Below, piece by piece: positions 1 through 27,271 of a stretch of DNA of 64,000 nucleotides (positions within the stretch are counted from its first letter, which is position 1; each line of letters opens with the position of its first letter). Source of the DNA: Nitrospinaceae bacterium (GTDB lineage: Bacteria; Nitrospinota; Nitrospinia; Nitrospinales; Nitrospinaceae); contig JAHELC010000007.1 in assembly GCA_024644405.1 (NCBI GenBank), positions 62,001 to 126,000 on the forward strand, given 5' to 3'. The translations under genes and the position numbers were made by a program. The notes under the pieces were generated by a model. That model made no database searches and was not told where the DNA came from. It saw nothing but the letters and a program-made list of their open reading frames with translations.

Positions 1-2461
1 CAGCCATGATTGAATTCAATTGAAAAATCTTTTGAGCGAGAGAAACGTAAGTGGAAATCAAATCCTCCGAATGCGACACTTGTTTCCCGTCAACCTCCTC
101 CTGGTACACGAAAACCAGATCCAGGTCCGAACCGAAGTTGATTTCCTGCCCGCCCAGTTTACCCAGCCCGATAATGGCGAAGTGATCCGGTAGATCCTTA
201 TTACTGCCCGACGACCCTAATTCCCCGCTCGCCAGTTGATACACGGTTTGCAGATAAATATCGGCCAGGTGAGACAAATCCGCCAGTGTACCCGGCACAT
301 CCGTTTCATGAATGATGAACCTTAACCCGATGCGAAACTCTTCGCCCTGCTTGAATTTTCGGAGGCAGATATTTTTTTCAGAGTGTTCCGCAACCGCCGA
401 CAACCGGGTCTTCAACTCCTCCATCATCATCGCCGGAGTTTTATAAAGGTACAGCGACTCCTGGTTGGAAATGACATCGATCAGGTTCGGCTGTTTGATC
501 AACAGGGTGGACAACACGCTGCTGGACCCGAAAAGAATCAGAAGAATTTCGAGAAATTTATGATTGTCCTGAAACACGGTCAAATAGGTTTCGCGGGCGT
601 GGCTGGCCTCCATAAAGCGTACCAGGTAATCCACTGCGGCATCCGGGTCGGGAACCTTGCGGCACAGGTCCAGCAGTGTCGGCAAAACCGCATAAAAGGT
701 TTGGATACTTTTTTCGCTGGCGTGGGACAGTTCCGGTCCATCGCGGAGCGTTTTTAAAAACTTGTAGGTGCGTTCGATATTCCTGAAAGGATAGTCTTTC
801 AGGGTGTTTTCCGTAAACCGTCCTTCCAGCTCCTGTTGGGTGGCCCACTGCTGTGCGGTATCACCCGCCGCCTGCTGGTCTTCATCTTCGGTAAACAGGT
901 TGGCGTACATATTCCCGACAAACTGCGTATGCCGCTCGAATTCCCGGTTCAACTGCTCCACCAACTGCGGGTAGGAGTCCCCCTGAAATCCCATTTTTCT
1001 TGCCAGGACCGCGAGGTTTTTTGCGTCTTTAGGAAGGTGATAGGTTTGCAGGCCAAAAGAAATCTGCACCCGGTTTTCCAGGTTGCGCAGGAAGATGTAG
1101 GCGTCGCGGAGATTTTCATATTCTTCATCCGTCAGAAATTCACGGTCGTTCAATTTTTTGATCAATGCCGAGGTATTGGGGTCGCGTAAACTCTGGTCAC
1201 GGCCACCGAACAACAGTTGATAGGACTGCACAATGAATTCCACTTCGCGGATGCCGCCAAATCCCAGCTTGATGTGTCCTTTTTCTAATTGATTCTTCTT
1301 TAAGTTCAGATCCACTTTTTTCTTCAGCGACTTGACTTCCTCGATGGCGTTGAAGTCCAGACTTCTGCGGTATACAAACGGACGGATCATGGTTAAAAAT
1401 TCCTTGCCCAGAGCCTGGCTGCCAGCGGAGACCCGCGCTTTGATGAGGGCCTGCCGCTCCCAGGTGCGTCCCCAGGATTCGTAATACGTCTCGCAACTGG
1501 TGAGAGAGTTGACCAGGTCTCCGCTTTTCCCATCCGGCCGGAGATCGAGATCGACCCGGAATACATTCCCTTCCGCGGTGATATCGTGAATGGTTTTGGT
1601 AATCAATTGTCCGAGCTTGGTGTGGAATTCATGATTACTGAGTTGGGTTTGCGACTCTCCCACCTGGGTCTCTCCCGCGCTGGAAGTGTAGATGTAGATC
1701 AAGTCGATGTCGGAGCTGTAGTTGAGTTCACGTCCGCCCAGCTTGCCCATGGACAGGATGGCGAACTCCGATTCACGGACCTGTCCGTCCGCGTCGGTAA
1801 ACAGGGGCGTGCCGTATTTCTCTTTGAGGATTTTAATTGAATATTCGTAAGCCACCTGCAGACAGACATCGGCCAGGTCGGACAGGCCCTCGACGTTTTC
1901 ACGCAAACTCACCAGGCCCATCAAATCGCGCAAACCCAGGCGGATGTACTCCCGTTTCTTGAATTTTCTCAGGAGGAACGCGGTTTGATCGGTCAATTCA
2001 TCCGTACCCGACAGCTCGTAAAAATCCCGGTACAACATATCCCGGGTTTTCGATCTGGTCAGGGTGTCGGGATCGCTCAACCAATCCACATAAGAAGGGT
2101 TGCTGAGGAGGGCGTCGGTCAACATCTGGCTTCCGGAGAAAAGAACGGTCAACGCTTTCAACAGGGAGGGCGAGTTGGACAACAGGGAATACAGGTGGTC
2201 TTTATCCCGGATTTCTTCGGCCAGCCGCTCAAAATTATTGAGAGCAATATCCGCATTATAGGATTGAGACAGATGATTCAAAAAAGAAGAAAAAAACTGC
2301 GGATACAATTTGGAGAAATTGCTCTGCCGGCTTAACGCGAGGAGAATCCGCCAGGCATTGTCCGGCTGTTCAAAGCCACCCTCGGCCAGCGCGGCTTCGA
2401 TTTCATCATTCCAGGGCTTGCTTTTGAACAGCCACGATTCCAATTTATTTGAATCATTCAT
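1..2461 (-). CDS. glnE: Glutamine synthetase adenylyltransferase/deadenylylase, partial at left edge
   Basis: Bifunctional enzyme that adds AMP to glutamine synthetase and removes it, under P-II control. About 820 residues are visible from the ATG at 2461; the 3' end lies outside the window (the usual length is about 950). The first nucleotidyltransferase domain has GKLGGRELNYSSDIDLIY near residue 230-250. The second begins at the window edge with GKLGGQEINFGSDLDLVF. Each carries the G-S/T-D-x-D metal-binding signature, so both half-enzymes look intact as far as can be seen. Between them is the helical linker with GFGGIREVEFIVQ. No good Shine-Dalgarno precedes the start. It lies directly downstream of glnA but beyond a strong terminator, so it probably has its own promoter or depends on read-through. 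The neighbouring glnA keeps the target tyrosine, which supports the assignment. Confidence 0.95.
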   Translation of the reverse strand, partial: MNDSNKLESWLFKSKPWNDEIEAALAEGGFEQPDNAWRILLALSRQSNFSKLYPQFFSSFLNHLSQSYNADIALNNFERLAEEIRDKDHLYSLLSNSPSLLKALTVLFSGSQMLTDALLSNPSYVDWLSDPDTLTRSKTRDMLYRDFYELSGTDELTDQTAFLLRKFKKREYIRLGLRDLMGLVSLRENVEGLSDLADVCLQVAYEYSIKILKEKYGTPLFTDADGQVRESEFAILSMGKLGGRELNYSSDIDLIYIYTSSAGETQVGESQTQLSNHEFHTKLGQLITKTIHDITAEGNVFRVDLDLRPDGKSGDLVNSLTSCETYYESWGRTWERQALIKARVSAGSQALGKEFLTMIRPFVYRRSLDFNAIEEVKSLKKKVDLNLKKNQLEKGHIKLGFGGIREVEFIVQSYQLLFGGRDQSLRDPNTSALIKKLNDREFLTDEEYENLRDAYIFLRNLENRVQISFGLQTYHLPKDAKNLAVLARKMGFQGDSYPQLVEQLNREFERHTQFVGNMYANLFTEDEDQQAAGDTAQQWATQQELEGRFTENTLKDYPFRNIERTYKFLKTLRDGPELSHASEKSIQTFYAVLPTLLDLCRKVPDPDAAVDYLVRFMEASHARETYLTVFQDNHKFLEILLILFGSSSVLSTLLIKQPNLIDVISNQESLYLYKTPAMMMEELKTRLSAVAEHSEKNICLRKFKQGEEFRIGLRFIIHETDVPGTLADLSHLADIYLQTVYQLASGELGSSGSNKDLPDHFAIIGLGKLGGQEINFGSDLDLVFVYQEEVDGKQVSHSEDLISTYVSLAQKIFQLNSIMA

Positions 2462-2504
2462 TCAGGGCCATTGTTGAGAGTGCCGTCGTTTCGCCAATCT
2501 AACA

Positions 2505-2536
2505 TAAAAAACCCCCTGGAAAAATCCAGGGGGTTT
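2505..2536 (-). terminator. Intrinsic terminator of glnA
   Basis: An 11-bp GC-rich inverted repeat (AACCCCCTGGA / TCCAGGGGGTT) with a 4-nt loop is followed on the minus strand by a run of six T. It lies 50 bp past the glnA stop and before the glnE start, so it separates the two genes transcriptionally. Confidence 0.9.
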
Positions 2537-2585
2537 ATCAATTGAAAAATTTAAATCATCAAACCTGGGGGATTCCCCGCAATCA

Positions 2586-3998
2586 TTAAATATCGTAGTA
2601 CAGGTAAAATTCATAGGGATGAGGCCGCAACCGCATTTCGTCGACTTCGTGCTCCCGCTTGTAGGAAATCCAGCGGTCGACCACATCCTGAGTGAACACA
2701 TCCCCTTTCAGCAGGAATTGGTGATCCTCTTCCAAGGCGAGGAGGGCTTCGTCCAAGGACCCGGGGAGCCGGGGAATATTGGCCAGTTCCTCCGGTCCGA
2801 GAGCGTAAATATCCTTATCCAGAGGTTCACCCGGATCGATTTTATTTTCGATGCCGTCCAGGCCCGCCATCAACATGGCCGAGAAAGCGAGATAACCGTT
2901 GCTGGACGGATCCGGAAACCGGCATTCCAGGCGCTTGGCTTTCGGGCTGGCCGAGTACATGGGAATACGCACCGCGGCACTCCGGTTGCGGCTGGAATAG
3001 GCCAGGTTGACGGGCGCCTCAAAGCCGGGAACCAGCCGCTTGTAGGAGTTCAGGGTCGGCGCAACAAAAGCCGCCAGCGCCCGGGCATGTTTCAGAATAC
3101 CGCCGATGTAATGCATCCCCATCTCACTGAAACCGGCATAACTGTTTCCGGCAAACAGCGGCTTGCCGCCCTTCCAGATACTTTGATGCACGTGCATTCC
3201 CGAACCGTTATCCCCAAAAATGGGTTTGGGCATGAAGGTGGCGGTTTTATTGTACCGGCGCGCAACGTTCTTAACGATGTATTTGTACCACATCAGATTG
3301 TCGGCACATCTCACCAGAGGGGCGAACCGCATGTCAATTTCACACTGCCCGCCGGAAGCCACTTCATGATGGTGACATTCCATCTGGATGCCGACTTTTT
3401 CCATCAACAAAGTCATCTCGGTTCGAATGTCATTCAAGCTGTCGCTGGGAGCCGCCGGGAAATACCCTTCCTTATAGCGCGGCTTGTAACCGAGGTTGGG
3501 GCCTTCATCACGCCCGGTGTTCCAGTTCCCCTCGCTCGAGTCCACATAATAAGCGGCGTGATTGATATCGGATTCATAGCGAACATCGTCAAATACAAAA
3601 AACTCCGGTTCGGGACCGAAATAAGCCGTGTCGCCGAGTCCCGTCGATTTGAGATAGGCTTCAGCCTTCATCGCGATGTTCCGCGGGTCGCGGGAGTATT
3701 TTTCCTTGGTGATGGGATCCACGATGTTACCGATCATGCTCAATGTCGGCTCTTTGGTGAAAGGATCCATAACACCGGTGTCAGAATTGGGAATGACCAG
3801 CATGTCACTGGCGTTGATGGCCTGCCATCCGCGGATACTGGATCCGTCAAACCCCAAGCCCTCTTCAAACATATGCTCTTCCAACTCGCTGATGGGAACG
3901 GTGAAATGCTGCCAGGTTCCCAGAAGATCCATGAATTTCAGGTCCACCATCACGGCACTGTTCTTCTTCGCTAAATCGATTACCTCTTTCGGTGTCAT
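2586..3998 (-). CDS. glnA: Glutamine synthetase type I
   Basis: Makes glutamine from glutamate, ammonia and ATP as a cytoplasmic dodecamer; it is the entry point of ammonium assimilation. Its 470 residues match the GSI family length. Visible signatures are the N-terminal beta-grasp segment ([17 protein letters not shown], about 20-36), [10 protein letters not shown] near 50, [10 protein letters not shown] near 128, and the ATP-binding segment with [16 protein letters not shown] near 255-270. Near the C-terminus it has the adenylylation segment [10 protein letters not shown], with the tyrosine modified by GlnE in the GSI-beta subtype. The start is preceded by GCGAGGAGC at good spacing. It follows glnB by 102 bp on the same strand and is likely cotranscribed with it. 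A terminator follows at 2505-2536. Confidence 0.98.
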
Positions 3999-23875: not shown

Positions 23876-25108
23876 TTGGATCTGAAAGAGGCGCGTTCCT
23901 ATCTCAACTACCTGCTGACCCTGAACATCCGCGGTGAGGAAGCGTTCGGCCCGATGGCTCTGGCCTTTATCAAGGACAACAACCTGGGCGGCATCGGCCT
24001 CGAACCGGAGGAACAGTTCGGCCTGTTGATGGCGACGGTGGCTTCGCTGGCGGACGAGCCGAAACGCTTCAGCCTGAAGCTGGAAATGCTCCAGAAGACC
24101 CGGGACCTGCTCTCCCAGACGCGCTACTCGAACACGGATCTTGCGCGCCAACTCGATTACGATATCAAGAAAACCGAATCGGAACTGAAGATTTACAACG
24201 ATGCCATGCGCCCCGCGCCGCGTACCGATGCCCAGGAGGTTCAGCAACTCGTCGTGCAAACCGATATCCCGGATTATTTTCTCGACGTCGCCCAGAAACG
24301 TGCGTCGGAGTATTACCAGAACAAGTTCAGTCTCAGCAAGCAGGCCAAGACTGCGCAAAATTTCACCGGCGGACCGCGCAAGTTCGAACCCGACAACAAG
24401 GACGTGCACCGCGAGTTCCCCGGCGCCTGCGCGCCGTTCATGAACTCGCGCACCAACGCATTCCACATGATGCTGCCGTTCGATCTCAAGATCAGCAAAA
24501 AGCCGGACGATCCGCTGGACGCGGGCTCGCGCATCTTCTACACCAAGTTCGGCTACTCGTTCCCGCTGGCGTATGAGATGGACAAGCTGATCAGCTATCA
24601 GGACGGGCAGGCGCTGGAAATCGCGCTGGACGATCCCAACCTCCTGTTTGTGTCGTTCTCCCGCGTGAAGGAAAAGGATTTCAAATTTCAGGGCGACAAG
24701 CCGGAAGTGCCGCCGGAATACGCGTACCCGGCGACTGTGCTGGAACGGTTGGGCACGCTCGGCACTTATGTGCAGATCGTCTCGAATTTCAAAGTATGGT
24801 TCGATTCAACGCAGGTTTCCGTGTTGGTCACCGGCGCGCCGGATTTGTACGAGTACGGGCTGCAGGGCGGCTCCGGCCTGATGACCCGCAGTCACGCGTC
24901 CGACAAGATCCCCGCGTATGCCGAGTCGACCAAAGAACCCTGGCAGGAGGGACTCAGCTTCAACTTCGTGAATATTCACCTGACGCTCAGCCCCGGCACC
25001 GACACCGCCGTGGTTCCCTACAACACGCCGCTGTTCACCGTCTACCCCGTCCACAACCGGCAGAATTTTAAATTTATCGACAAGTACAAGATACCGAAAT
25101 CAGGATGA
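23876..25108 (+). CDS. Conserved-looking protein of unknown function
   Basis: 410 residues, unrecognised. The start is a TTG with GGAGG five bases upstream; the nearest ATG (23850) is out of frame. The first 130 residues are helical and charged (RSYLNYLLTLNIRGEEAFG). After a proline-rich link, about 180-400 looks like a beta-rich domain (FGYSFPLAYEMDKLISYQDG, LGTLGTYVQIVSNFKVWF, LVTGAPDLYEYGLQGGSG, HLTLSPGTDTAVVPYNTPLF). There is no signal peptide, membrane segment or obvious catalytic motif. It is GC-rich, like the dioxygenase-methyltransferase gene 500 bp downstream and unlike the small AT-rich gene between them. No function is proposed. Confidence 0.7.
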   Translation: MDLKEARSYLNYLLTLNIRGEEAFGPMALAFIKDNNLGGIGLEPEEQFGLLMATVASLADEPKRFSLKLEMLQKTRDLLSQTRYSNTDLARQLDYDIKKTESELKIYNDAMRPAPRTDAQEVQQLVVQTDIPDYFLDVAQKRASEYYQNKFSLSKQAKTAQNFTGGPRKFEPDNKDVHREFPGACAPFMNSRTNAFHMMLPFDLKISKKPDDPLDAGSRIFYTKFGYSFPLAYEMDKLISYQDGQALEIALDDPNLLFVSFSRVKEKDFKFQGDKPEVPPEYAYPATVLERLGTLGTYVQIVSNFKVWFDSTQVSVLVTGAPDLYEYGLQGGSGLMTRSHASDKIPAYAESTKEPWQEGLSFNFVNIHLTLSPGTDTAVVPYNTPLFTVYPVHNRQNFKFIDKYKIPKSG

Positions 25109-25479: not shown

Positions 25480-25627
25480 AACCCGTAATACCTTCAATTA
25501 ATTGAACTTTCTCGCATCACCTGTCAATTTCCTCCAACAATTAAAATTTTCTGCCCTATATTATTAAAGTAGCGTTTTCGCGGGATCGTTGCAGAACATT
25601 CGATTCCTCCACTCAATCAGGAACACC

Positions 25628-27271
25628 ATGGCGGCCATGAACAAACATCGTTTGCCTTTTGCCATCCAGGATCTGATCCGGATGCTGGAGGAGACGAAGG
25701 ACCTCACCCCGCGCAAGGCGCGCGAACTTTTGCTTTCGGCCAACCTGCAGGCGGAAGACCTCGAACCCTGGTCGGAGCTCGAACACCCGATCCGCGACAG
25801 CTACGGACGCAAACTGGTGTTTGACGGCGGCTATTTCGAAATGATGGTCATGTCGTGGACGCCGGGGGATTTCTCCGCCATACACGATCACGGCTATACC
25901 GAGTGGGGCGCAGTGCAGGTGTTCGGTCCGGCGGAGCACTCGGTCTTCCTGGTGCAGGACGGCGACATCACCACCCTGTCGCGCGCCGAAGTGAAACCCG
26001 GAGAAGTGATGTCGGTGGGGCATCAACTGGTGCACCAGCTGGGCAATCCGTCCAACACCAATTTCATGAGCTTCCACATGTACGGCTGTTACGAAAAGTC
26101 CAAGGGCGGCATCACCGCCGACGCGCGCATCTTCGATCTCGAAGAAAACACCATACAACGCACCGACGGCGGGGTGTTCTTTGCCATGCCGGAGAACCAG
26201 ATCAAGCGCCGCGAGCCGGGACCGCATCCCGATTACATCACCTGGCTGCGCAACGTCATCGAACTGAAAAACCGCATCGACCGGGTCCAGCGCCACATGG
26301 AGCTGCCGGCCGACCTGGAACAACGCGACGCCGGTGTTATTCAGAAACTGTGTGATACCTCCAACTGGCAACGATTTGTGAACGATCTGTTTCCGCACGT
26401 CGAACCCAATACCGGCCACATGAAGGACATGGGCTACTGGCGGCTGTTGCGCAACGAACTCATTGCCGCCGCCAAGGTGCAGAAGACCTTGTTGTTCCCG
26501 AACGACGAGGGCGATCCGTTTTACACCTACGCTGAGTTGTACGATGACGTCGTCGGCCAACCCTGCCTCGACGAATTCATCGCTGAATATTTAAAATTCG
26601 TTTTTGAAAAATACAAGATCGGGCGGGACACGGTGAAATTGCTCTCCATCGGTTGCGGTACGGGGATCGTGGAAGGTTACATGATTCAAAAACTCGGCCT
26701 GCCGGGCGATCGTTTGTTAGGCATCGACAAGTCGGAGGCCATGGTGCAGGTGGCGTCGCGCCGCATCACCGCCAAGGCGGAGGACATCCTGGCGCTGGGC
26801 GATCAAACGTGGGACGTCACTTACTGCGGACTCAACGTGTTTCAATATTTGTCGCCGGAGCAGTTGGACGAAGCGCTGGCGGTGACGGCACAGATCACCC
26901 AGCCCGGCGGATACTTTATCGGCGACTTCATCACGCCGGATCATATACGGACCTATCCGCACGTGATCCGGTCTAAGACCGGTAACGTCATCTCCCTTCG
27001 CAACCCGGTGCTGATCGAGGAAGGCAACTACACGTTTCAACAGAGCGAAATTTTAAACGTCAGTAAAAATAACGACCGGTTACTGATCACCAACGAAGGC
27101 AAACACCTGAGATTTCTGCCGCCGATGTGGCGCCTCCGGCAGGAATTTGAAAAAGCGTTCAAAGGCAAAGTGGATATTTATGATGCCGTGACGCTCCAAC
27201 CCATCGGCGACAAAGCCGACACCTGCCCCTCCACCCGCTACCTCCTCGTCGCGCAAAAAAAGCCAGCGTGA
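25628..27271 (+). CDS. Cysteine-dioxygenase-like cupin fused to a SAM methyltransferase
   Basis: 547 residues from the ATG at 25628 (AGGA upstream); an upstream TTG at 25589 is less likely. The N-terminal part (about 15-215) resembles thiol dioxygenases. It has the iron-ligand histidine pair in FSAIHDHGYTEWGAVQVF and a third histidine in GHQLVHQLGNPSNTNFMSFHMY, where the family has H-x-V-G-N. A helical linker follows (about 220-330). A class I methyltransferase domain follows (about 330-530), with motif I LLSIGCGTGIVEGY, an acidic residue in LLGIDKSEAM and the post-motif DVTYCGLNVFQYLSP. Type I cysteine dioxygenases oxidise a small thiol to its sulfinate. A fused methyltransferase suggests coupled modification of one substrate, but this is inference. 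The gene is convergent with uvrC and shares its terminator region. Confidence 0.8.
   Translation: MAAMNKHRLPFAIQDLIRMLEETKDLTPRKARELLLSANLQAEDLEPWSELEHPIRDSYGRKLVFDGGYFEMMVMSWTPGDFSAIHDHGYTEWGAVQVFGPAEHSVFLVQDGDITTLSRAEVKPGEVMSVGHQLVHQLGNPSNTNFMSFHMYGCYEKSKGGITADARIFDLEENTIQRTDGGVFFAMPENQIKRREPGPHPDYITWLRNVIELKNRIDRVQRHMELPADLEQRDAGVIQKLCDTSNWQRFVNDLFPHVEPNTGHMKDMGYWRLLRNELIAAAKVQKTLLFPNDEGDPFYTYAELYDDVVGQPCLDEFIAEYLKFVFEKYKIGRDTVKLLSIGCGTGIVEGYMIQKLGLPGDRLLGIDKSEAMVQVASRRITAKAEDILALGDQTWDVTYCGLNVFQYLSPEQLDEALAVTAQITQPGGYFIGDFITPDHIRTYPHVIRSKTGNVISLRNPVLIEEGNYTFQQSEILNVSKNNDRLLITNEGKHLRFLPPMWRLRQEFEKAFKGKVDIYDAVTLQPIGDKADTCPSTRYLLVAQKKPA

Follow-up and report, generated by a model that had tools for sequence, protein, structure and literature searches.

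Gene organization and domain architecture

The window analysed here is a stretch of 64,000 nt (positions 62,001-126,000 of the forward strand of contig JAHELC010000007.1) from the assembly GCA_024644405.1 of a Nitrospinaceae bacterium, a marine nitrite-oxidising bacterium. A frame of 547 residues runs on the + strand of this window from an ATG at 25628 to a stop codon at 27269-27271 without an internal stop. The features of the gene are given below in window coordinates, where A4 is the cupin alignment (17 rows) and A5 is the methyltransferase alignment (14 rows).

25628..27271, + strand: whole gene, a cupin like that of cysteine dioxygenase (CDO), a helical linker and a SAM methyltransferase, 547 aa (frame, relatives)
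25628..26212, + strand: thiol-dioxygenase (PF05995-type) cupin domain, residues 1-195 (Pfam and profile matches)
25802..25810, + strand: Y59-G60-R61, position of CDO Tyr58/Arg60 (alignments; Gln at the R61 position in 3-mercaptopropionate dioxygenase, 3MDO)
25883..25891, + strand: H86-D87-H88, putative first two iron ligands (His invariant in A4; aligned to the HDH of CDO)
26033..26035, + strand: H136, putative third iron ligand (invariant in A4; aligned to the third His of CDO)
26069..26083, + strand: S148-F-H150-M-Y152, SHY motif, S or T in relatives (alignments)
26213..26512, + strand: helical linker, residues about 196-295 (predicted helices; no Pfam match above cut-off)
26513..27268, + strand: class I SAM methyltransferase domain, residues 296-547 (Methyltransf_25; fold matches)
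26639..26665, + strand: SAM motif I, LLSIGCGTG, residues 338-346 (G342, G344, T345 and G346 invariant in A5)
26726..26728, + strand: D367, acidic end of strand 2 (invariant in A5)
26924..26959, + strand: DFITPDHIRTYP, residues 433-444, conserved family block (A5)
27215..27241, + strand: ADTCPSTRY, residues 530-538, conserved family block with invariant Cys533 (A5)

An alternative TTG start at 25589 opens a longer frame with 13 additional residues; the ATG at 25628 was preferred because the relatives begin near it and an AGGA sits 5 bases ahead of it. Two frames lie upstream of the gene, one of 118 residues and of membrane type, the other (23876-25108) of 410 residues and without a family; for the latter no Pfam or NCBIfam match was obtained at E <= 1. 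The downstream frame, on the opposite strand, is presumably of the UvrC type, as named from its sequence. The 410-residue frame is 92% identical in L037 and 90% identical in L004.

The initial annotation had placed a cupin and a methyltransferase in a single chain, and this was confirmed by the one intact frame and by the recurrence of the pairing in three phyla. A chance read-through or an assembly artefact that joins two adjacent genes was refuted and keeps a negligible probability, because the same stop-free junction recurs in Nitrospinota (nine genomes), in Bacteroidota (six genomes) and in one Crenotrichaceae MAG. The alignments excluded fragments (L006, L007, L009, L010, L020, L021 and L024), other methyltransferases (L022, L023 and L025) and copies of L002-L005 (L012-L014 and L018); L016 and L017, from the genus of L032, were left out of A4 and A5.

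Family assignment and predicted active site of the cupin

The profile of the 17 cupin relatives matched the Bacillus-type CDO structure 3eqe with an E value of 7.1e-16, mammalian CDO1 with about 1e-10, starting at residue 8, and 3MDO with 5.9e-7; the similarity to CDO is well above what chance would give. All the 17 cupin rows matched PF05995 (CDO_I) at E <= 0.01, and the query alone was marginal: the full-length protein scored 21.5 bits, where the Pfam cut-off is 23, and its cupin piece 24.4 bits. Judged by these matches, the N-terminal half is a member of the CDO family, and the cupin first described as thiol-dioxygenase-like thus falls within an oxygenase family.

The 17 fusion-family rows formed one clade (support 99/96) in a tree built from 39 cupin rows, apart from the ten Gln-type rows. 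Midpoint rooting and long branches, above all that of L070, limit what the tree says on the sister group of this clade. The comparison set consisted of 26 loci (L070-L095), from which 22 rows were kept after removal of L090 and L093 (no frame), L076 (same gene as L008) and L091 (wrong frame). L070 itself (1051-3303) encodes CDO_I and a PF13454 FAD-NAD(P)-binding domain in one 751-residue frame. It is another CDO fusion, but its partner domain is different and its cupin is diverged and lies on a long branch.

The residues H86, H88, H136, Y59, R61, W77, H150 and Y152 were invariant in all 17 rows, and position 148 was S or T. The three-histidine pattern noticed earlier (H86-x-H88...H136) aligns residue for residue with the ligands of solved CDOs, and so do Y59, R61, W77 and S148-H150-Y152. 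We take Tyr58 and Trp77 to be the CDO numbers of the positions aligned to Y59 and W77. As compared to the Arg-type CDOs (the B. subtilis-type 3eqe and 4qm8, and mammalian CDO1), the alignment to CDO1 extends over all of the N-terminal half and takes in the N-terminal helices, and the three His, the Arg60-type Arg, the Trp and the SHY motif are common to both. The differences are that the fusion protein carries a methyltransferase, that its cupins form a clade of their own, and that W93 stands where CDO1 has a Cys after the HDH (HDHGYTEW versus HDHTNSHC), presumably the cross-linking Cys.

The structures of 3MDO (3uss, 6xb9 and 4qma) share with our cupin the His ligands, the SHY motif and a WG...AE-type stretch after the HxH, but they have Gln at the position of R61. 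According to PMC8050391, Arg60 of the Arg-type CDO interacts with the cysteine carboxylate, and the Gln-type enzymes carry Gln there, with a relocated Arg168 in 3MDO. All 17 rows have R61 at this position, and of the remaining 22 PF05995 rows in the tree ten have Gln. The SHY motif has been described for thiol dioxygenases, in which the S-to-T exchange is normal (15%), and it is replaced by X-Asp-Leu in the N-terminal cysteine oxidases (ADO/PCO), as stated in PMC10966181. The alignments thus support an Arg-type (CDO-like) rather than a Gln-type (3-mercaptopropionate) dioxygenase, since R61 and not Gln occupies this position, and the presence of the SHY motif argues against an ADO/PCO enzyme. 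R167 had been considered as the counterpart of 3MDO Arg168, a second carboxylate site, and was dropped as it is one alignment column off; it is K in L030 and L047 and otherwise invariant in the cupin rows. Two AlphaFold models built from a seven-row alignment gave a cupin pLDDT of about 40 in both (42 in the second), too poor for the geometry of the iron site.

Some cupins are sensory, and the cupin could in principle be a catalytically silent or sensory domain which binds iron, O2 or cysteine and regulates the methyltransferase. However, the CDO catalytic residues and the second-sphere triad are kept in every one of the 17 rows, which range from 41 to 97% identity to the query, and mere binding would not need these residues. 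A sensory role is therefore quite improbable.

The linker and the methyltransferase domain

The segment between the two domains had been described as a helical linker, and the prediction agrees with this: it is about 100 residues long, with four helices in the AlphaFold model (203-223, 228-241, 246-257 and 268-289) and a block pLDDT of 70-89 over residues 201-290. The first part of the linker may belong to the cupin, because the stand-alone cupin of L046 retains it.

At the C-terminal end the SAM-binding motif is complete, as annotated, with LLSIGCGTG and D367 both present and a Pfam match of the query to Methyltransf_25 (E = 1.4e-9). The glycines of motif I were invariant in 14/14 methyltransferase rows, and D367 is, by analogy, presumably the ribose-binding position. 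The blocks DFITxDHxRxYP and ADxCxSTRY were kept over the same rows, with the last Y changed to I in one of them. The model of this domain had a block pLDDT of 73-91 beyond residue 390 and was weak at 295-313 and 369-391. The best fold match was CgnL (Z 18.1, rmsd 2.9, 221 residues), and the fold neighbours, several of them tied, included a Pyrococcus methyltransferase, TylM1 (Z 16.4), PsmD, SeMT, GNMT (Z 16.1), the bacillithiol methyltransferase NmbA (16.0) and a glycine-sarcosine N-methyltransferase (14.6). The model thus assigns the C-terminal half to the class I SAM methyltransferases with a GNMT/TylM1/CgnL-like fold (Z 14-18), at about 14-21% identity to these enzymes. Such a common methyltransferase fold does not reveal which atom is methylated. 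Nitrogen is our first and tentative guess, given the number of amine methyltransferases in the set of fold neighbours.

Sulfinate is a good sulfur nucleophile, and the methyltransferase could instead alkylate the sulfur of a cysteine sulfinate made by the cupin, which would give S-methylcysteine sulfone. This chemically simple route would account for the fusion, and two enzymes of sulfur metabolites, DsyB and NmbA, are among the 50 fold matches listed. On the other hand, the nearest folds, judged by title, are mostly amine or carbon methyltransferases, and the papers listed by a literature search name no enzyme of that kind, so we regard S-methylation of the sulfinate as unlikely.

Selection and distribution of the fusion

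The dN/dS values against the three nearest relatives were 0.03-0.15 for the cupin, 0.07-0.11 for the linker and 0.05-0.06 for the methyltransferase, with synonymous change close to saturation in places. Two wider pairs were also compared, of which L015-L017 yielded values of 0.08, 0.18 and 0.16, respectively. Purifying selection acts on both halves and on the linker. The identities of the two halves were correlated over the 14 fused proteins (r = 0.90; 0 of 5000 permutations as high), which reflects shared history and not function.

An architecture search for the pair, suggested in the initial annotation, showed that it recurs in Nitrospinota, in a Crenotrichaceae MAG and in Bacteroidota. The fusion family was present in 11 of 77 Nitrospinota genomes, full length in nine and in pieces at contig ends in two; matches were obtained in 13 of the 77, and those of G051 and G003 were weak, methyltransferase-only and not counted. 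Every Nitrospinota match to PF05995 at E <= 1e-3 (10/77 genomes) was the fusion gene. Outside Nitrospinota the family was found in ten genomes, the G963 stub excluded: seven carried the fusion (the Crenotrichaceae MAG and six Bacteroidota) and three the cupin only. In the genome samples, which overlap, the phylum of the Crenotrichaceae MAG gave only that MAG itself among 398 genomes, the class of the Bacteroidia MAG two fused and one cupin-only among 295, the order of G617 five fused (G617 counted again) and two cupin-only among 198, and the order of G077 only G077 and a 73-residue stub in G963 among 151. No relative was found in viral contigs and plasmids. This patchy spread would fit horizontal transfer or loss. 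The genomes with a cupin but no attached methyltransferase were the Bacteroidota G476, G932 and G807, in which no separate methyltransferase of the fusion type was detected at E <= 1e-12, and the existence of these cupin-only forms means that the two activities are separable.

Two loci deserve separate mention. In L010 (1-804) the Nitrospinota gene, at 91% identity, is found on a contig that was binned as Rhodospirillales. This is probably cross-binning, because the gene also occurs in a Nitrospinota bin from that sample series (L006, L009). The stub L045 (G963:C180:4017-4235, within L052) lies in the interior of its contig, and its match (E 6.5e-19) is confined to the beginning of the family; it is possibly a decayed copy.

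Gene neighbourhoods

The gene context was not conserved in Nitrospinota, and the neighbours formed no pathway. The Pfam run covered selected neighbours and the remaining ones were read by eye; in L036, L047, L048 and L049 a contig end lies within or close to the examined stretch. A CysD/CysN pair was located 2.7 kb from the fusion gene in L034 only among the Nitrospinota neighbourhoods. A PF04143 sulfur-transport gene was near the family gene in three of the nine Bacteroidota neighbourhoods (L031, L046 and L048), as a scanned pair in L031 and in L048. L048 continues with a SulP-type sulfate permease, and a SulP-like frame was recognised by eye in L046. The CysD/CysN pair and the PF04143 context both lean weakly to sulfur metabolism. 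A porin-like frame is also near the gene in L031, L046 and L048, and stand-alone cupins of the same clade adjoin an amidohydrolase, D-aminoacylase-like by eye, in L030 (4376-7255) and L047 (4790-7381).

This context bears on the main rival explanation, in which each domain has a substrate of its own within one process of sulfur handling or detoxification: the cupin would oxidise a low-molecular-weight thiol or a persulfide, the methyltransferase would cap another thiol or an amine, and the fusion would only co-regulate them. The transport genes in the three Bacteroidota neighbourhoods, the cupin standing alone in three genomes and the bacillithiol methyltransferase among the fold neighbours are in its favour. 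But no sulfur-transport gene was seen by eye in the other six Bacteroidota neighbourhoods, PF04143 at E <= 1e-3 was found in only one of the 11 gene-carrying Nitrospinota genomes (G028, a pair on another contig), and R61 with the SHY motif would suit an amino-acid thiol better than a persulfide. We give this explanation about one chance in four.

A taurine route after cysteine sulfinate was set aside. PF00282, which we take to be the family of cysteine-sulfinate decarboxylase and which was the only decarboxylase family searched, is absent from the genome of the window and present in G011 alone of the 11 gene-carrying Nitrospinota genomes, and the route thus has no support.

Proposed function

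Both domain families are well known, and what appears to be new is the pairing of CDO with a methyltransferase. No description of such a fusion was found among the open-licence papers listed, including PMC2922099 and PMC6331615. A precedent is DsyGD, in which a SAM methyltransferase and a second domain in one chain carry out consecutive steps on a sulfur metabolite; its domain order is the opposite and its second domain is PF04115 (ureidoglycolate-lyase type) and not CDO (PMC11306096). PF04115 gave no Pfam match in our fusion protein at E <= 1. The idea of a DMSP enzyme of the DsyGD type was rejected on this domain difference, and DsyGD is an analogue only.

Both domains are very probably catalytically active. 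The cupin would bind Fe(II) via H86, H88 and H136, as in its family, and R61 would likewise hold the carboxylate of a thiol of the amino-acid type, most probably L-cysteine or one of its close derivatives; cysteine or another alpha-amino-acid thiol is more likely than not the substrate of the dioxygenase. By homology, O2 and the S/T148-H150-Y152 relay would then yield a sulfinic acid from the thiol. The GNMT-type domain would use SAM to methylate this same metabolite, with the amino group as the most likely site. Methylation could precede oxidation, with N-methyl-cysteine as the dioxygenase substrate, or it could follow, with cysteine sulfinate as the methyl acceptor and N-methyl-cysteine sulfinate as the product.

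A fusion that is conserved hints strongly at consecutive reactions, and it is because the covalent fusion is conserved here that we infer both sites to act on one molecule, a reading that we favour by a narrow measure. Sulfur oxidation and then methyl transfer in one chain were first put forward from the sequence; that both take place on one molecule is plausible, and we put the chances at even that the protein is a bifunctional small-molecule enzyme for thiol oxidation and methylation of the same metabolite. The three cupin-only Bacteroidota genomes and the unconserved gene context in Nitrospinota, with no pathway, weigh against this reading. It is conceivable, at somewhat lower odds, that the tandem enzyme makes a compound new to these bacteria. 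It would be cysteine sulfinate methylated on nitrogen or, as the bolder guess, a methyl sulfone that arises by enzymatic S-methylation of a sulfinate. If one molecule does serve both domains, a cysteine-like thiol would be turned into a methylated sulfur metabolite that has gone unrecognised, in marine nitrite oxidisers as well as in several Bacteroidota, and a clade with its own partner enzyme would be added to the CDO family.
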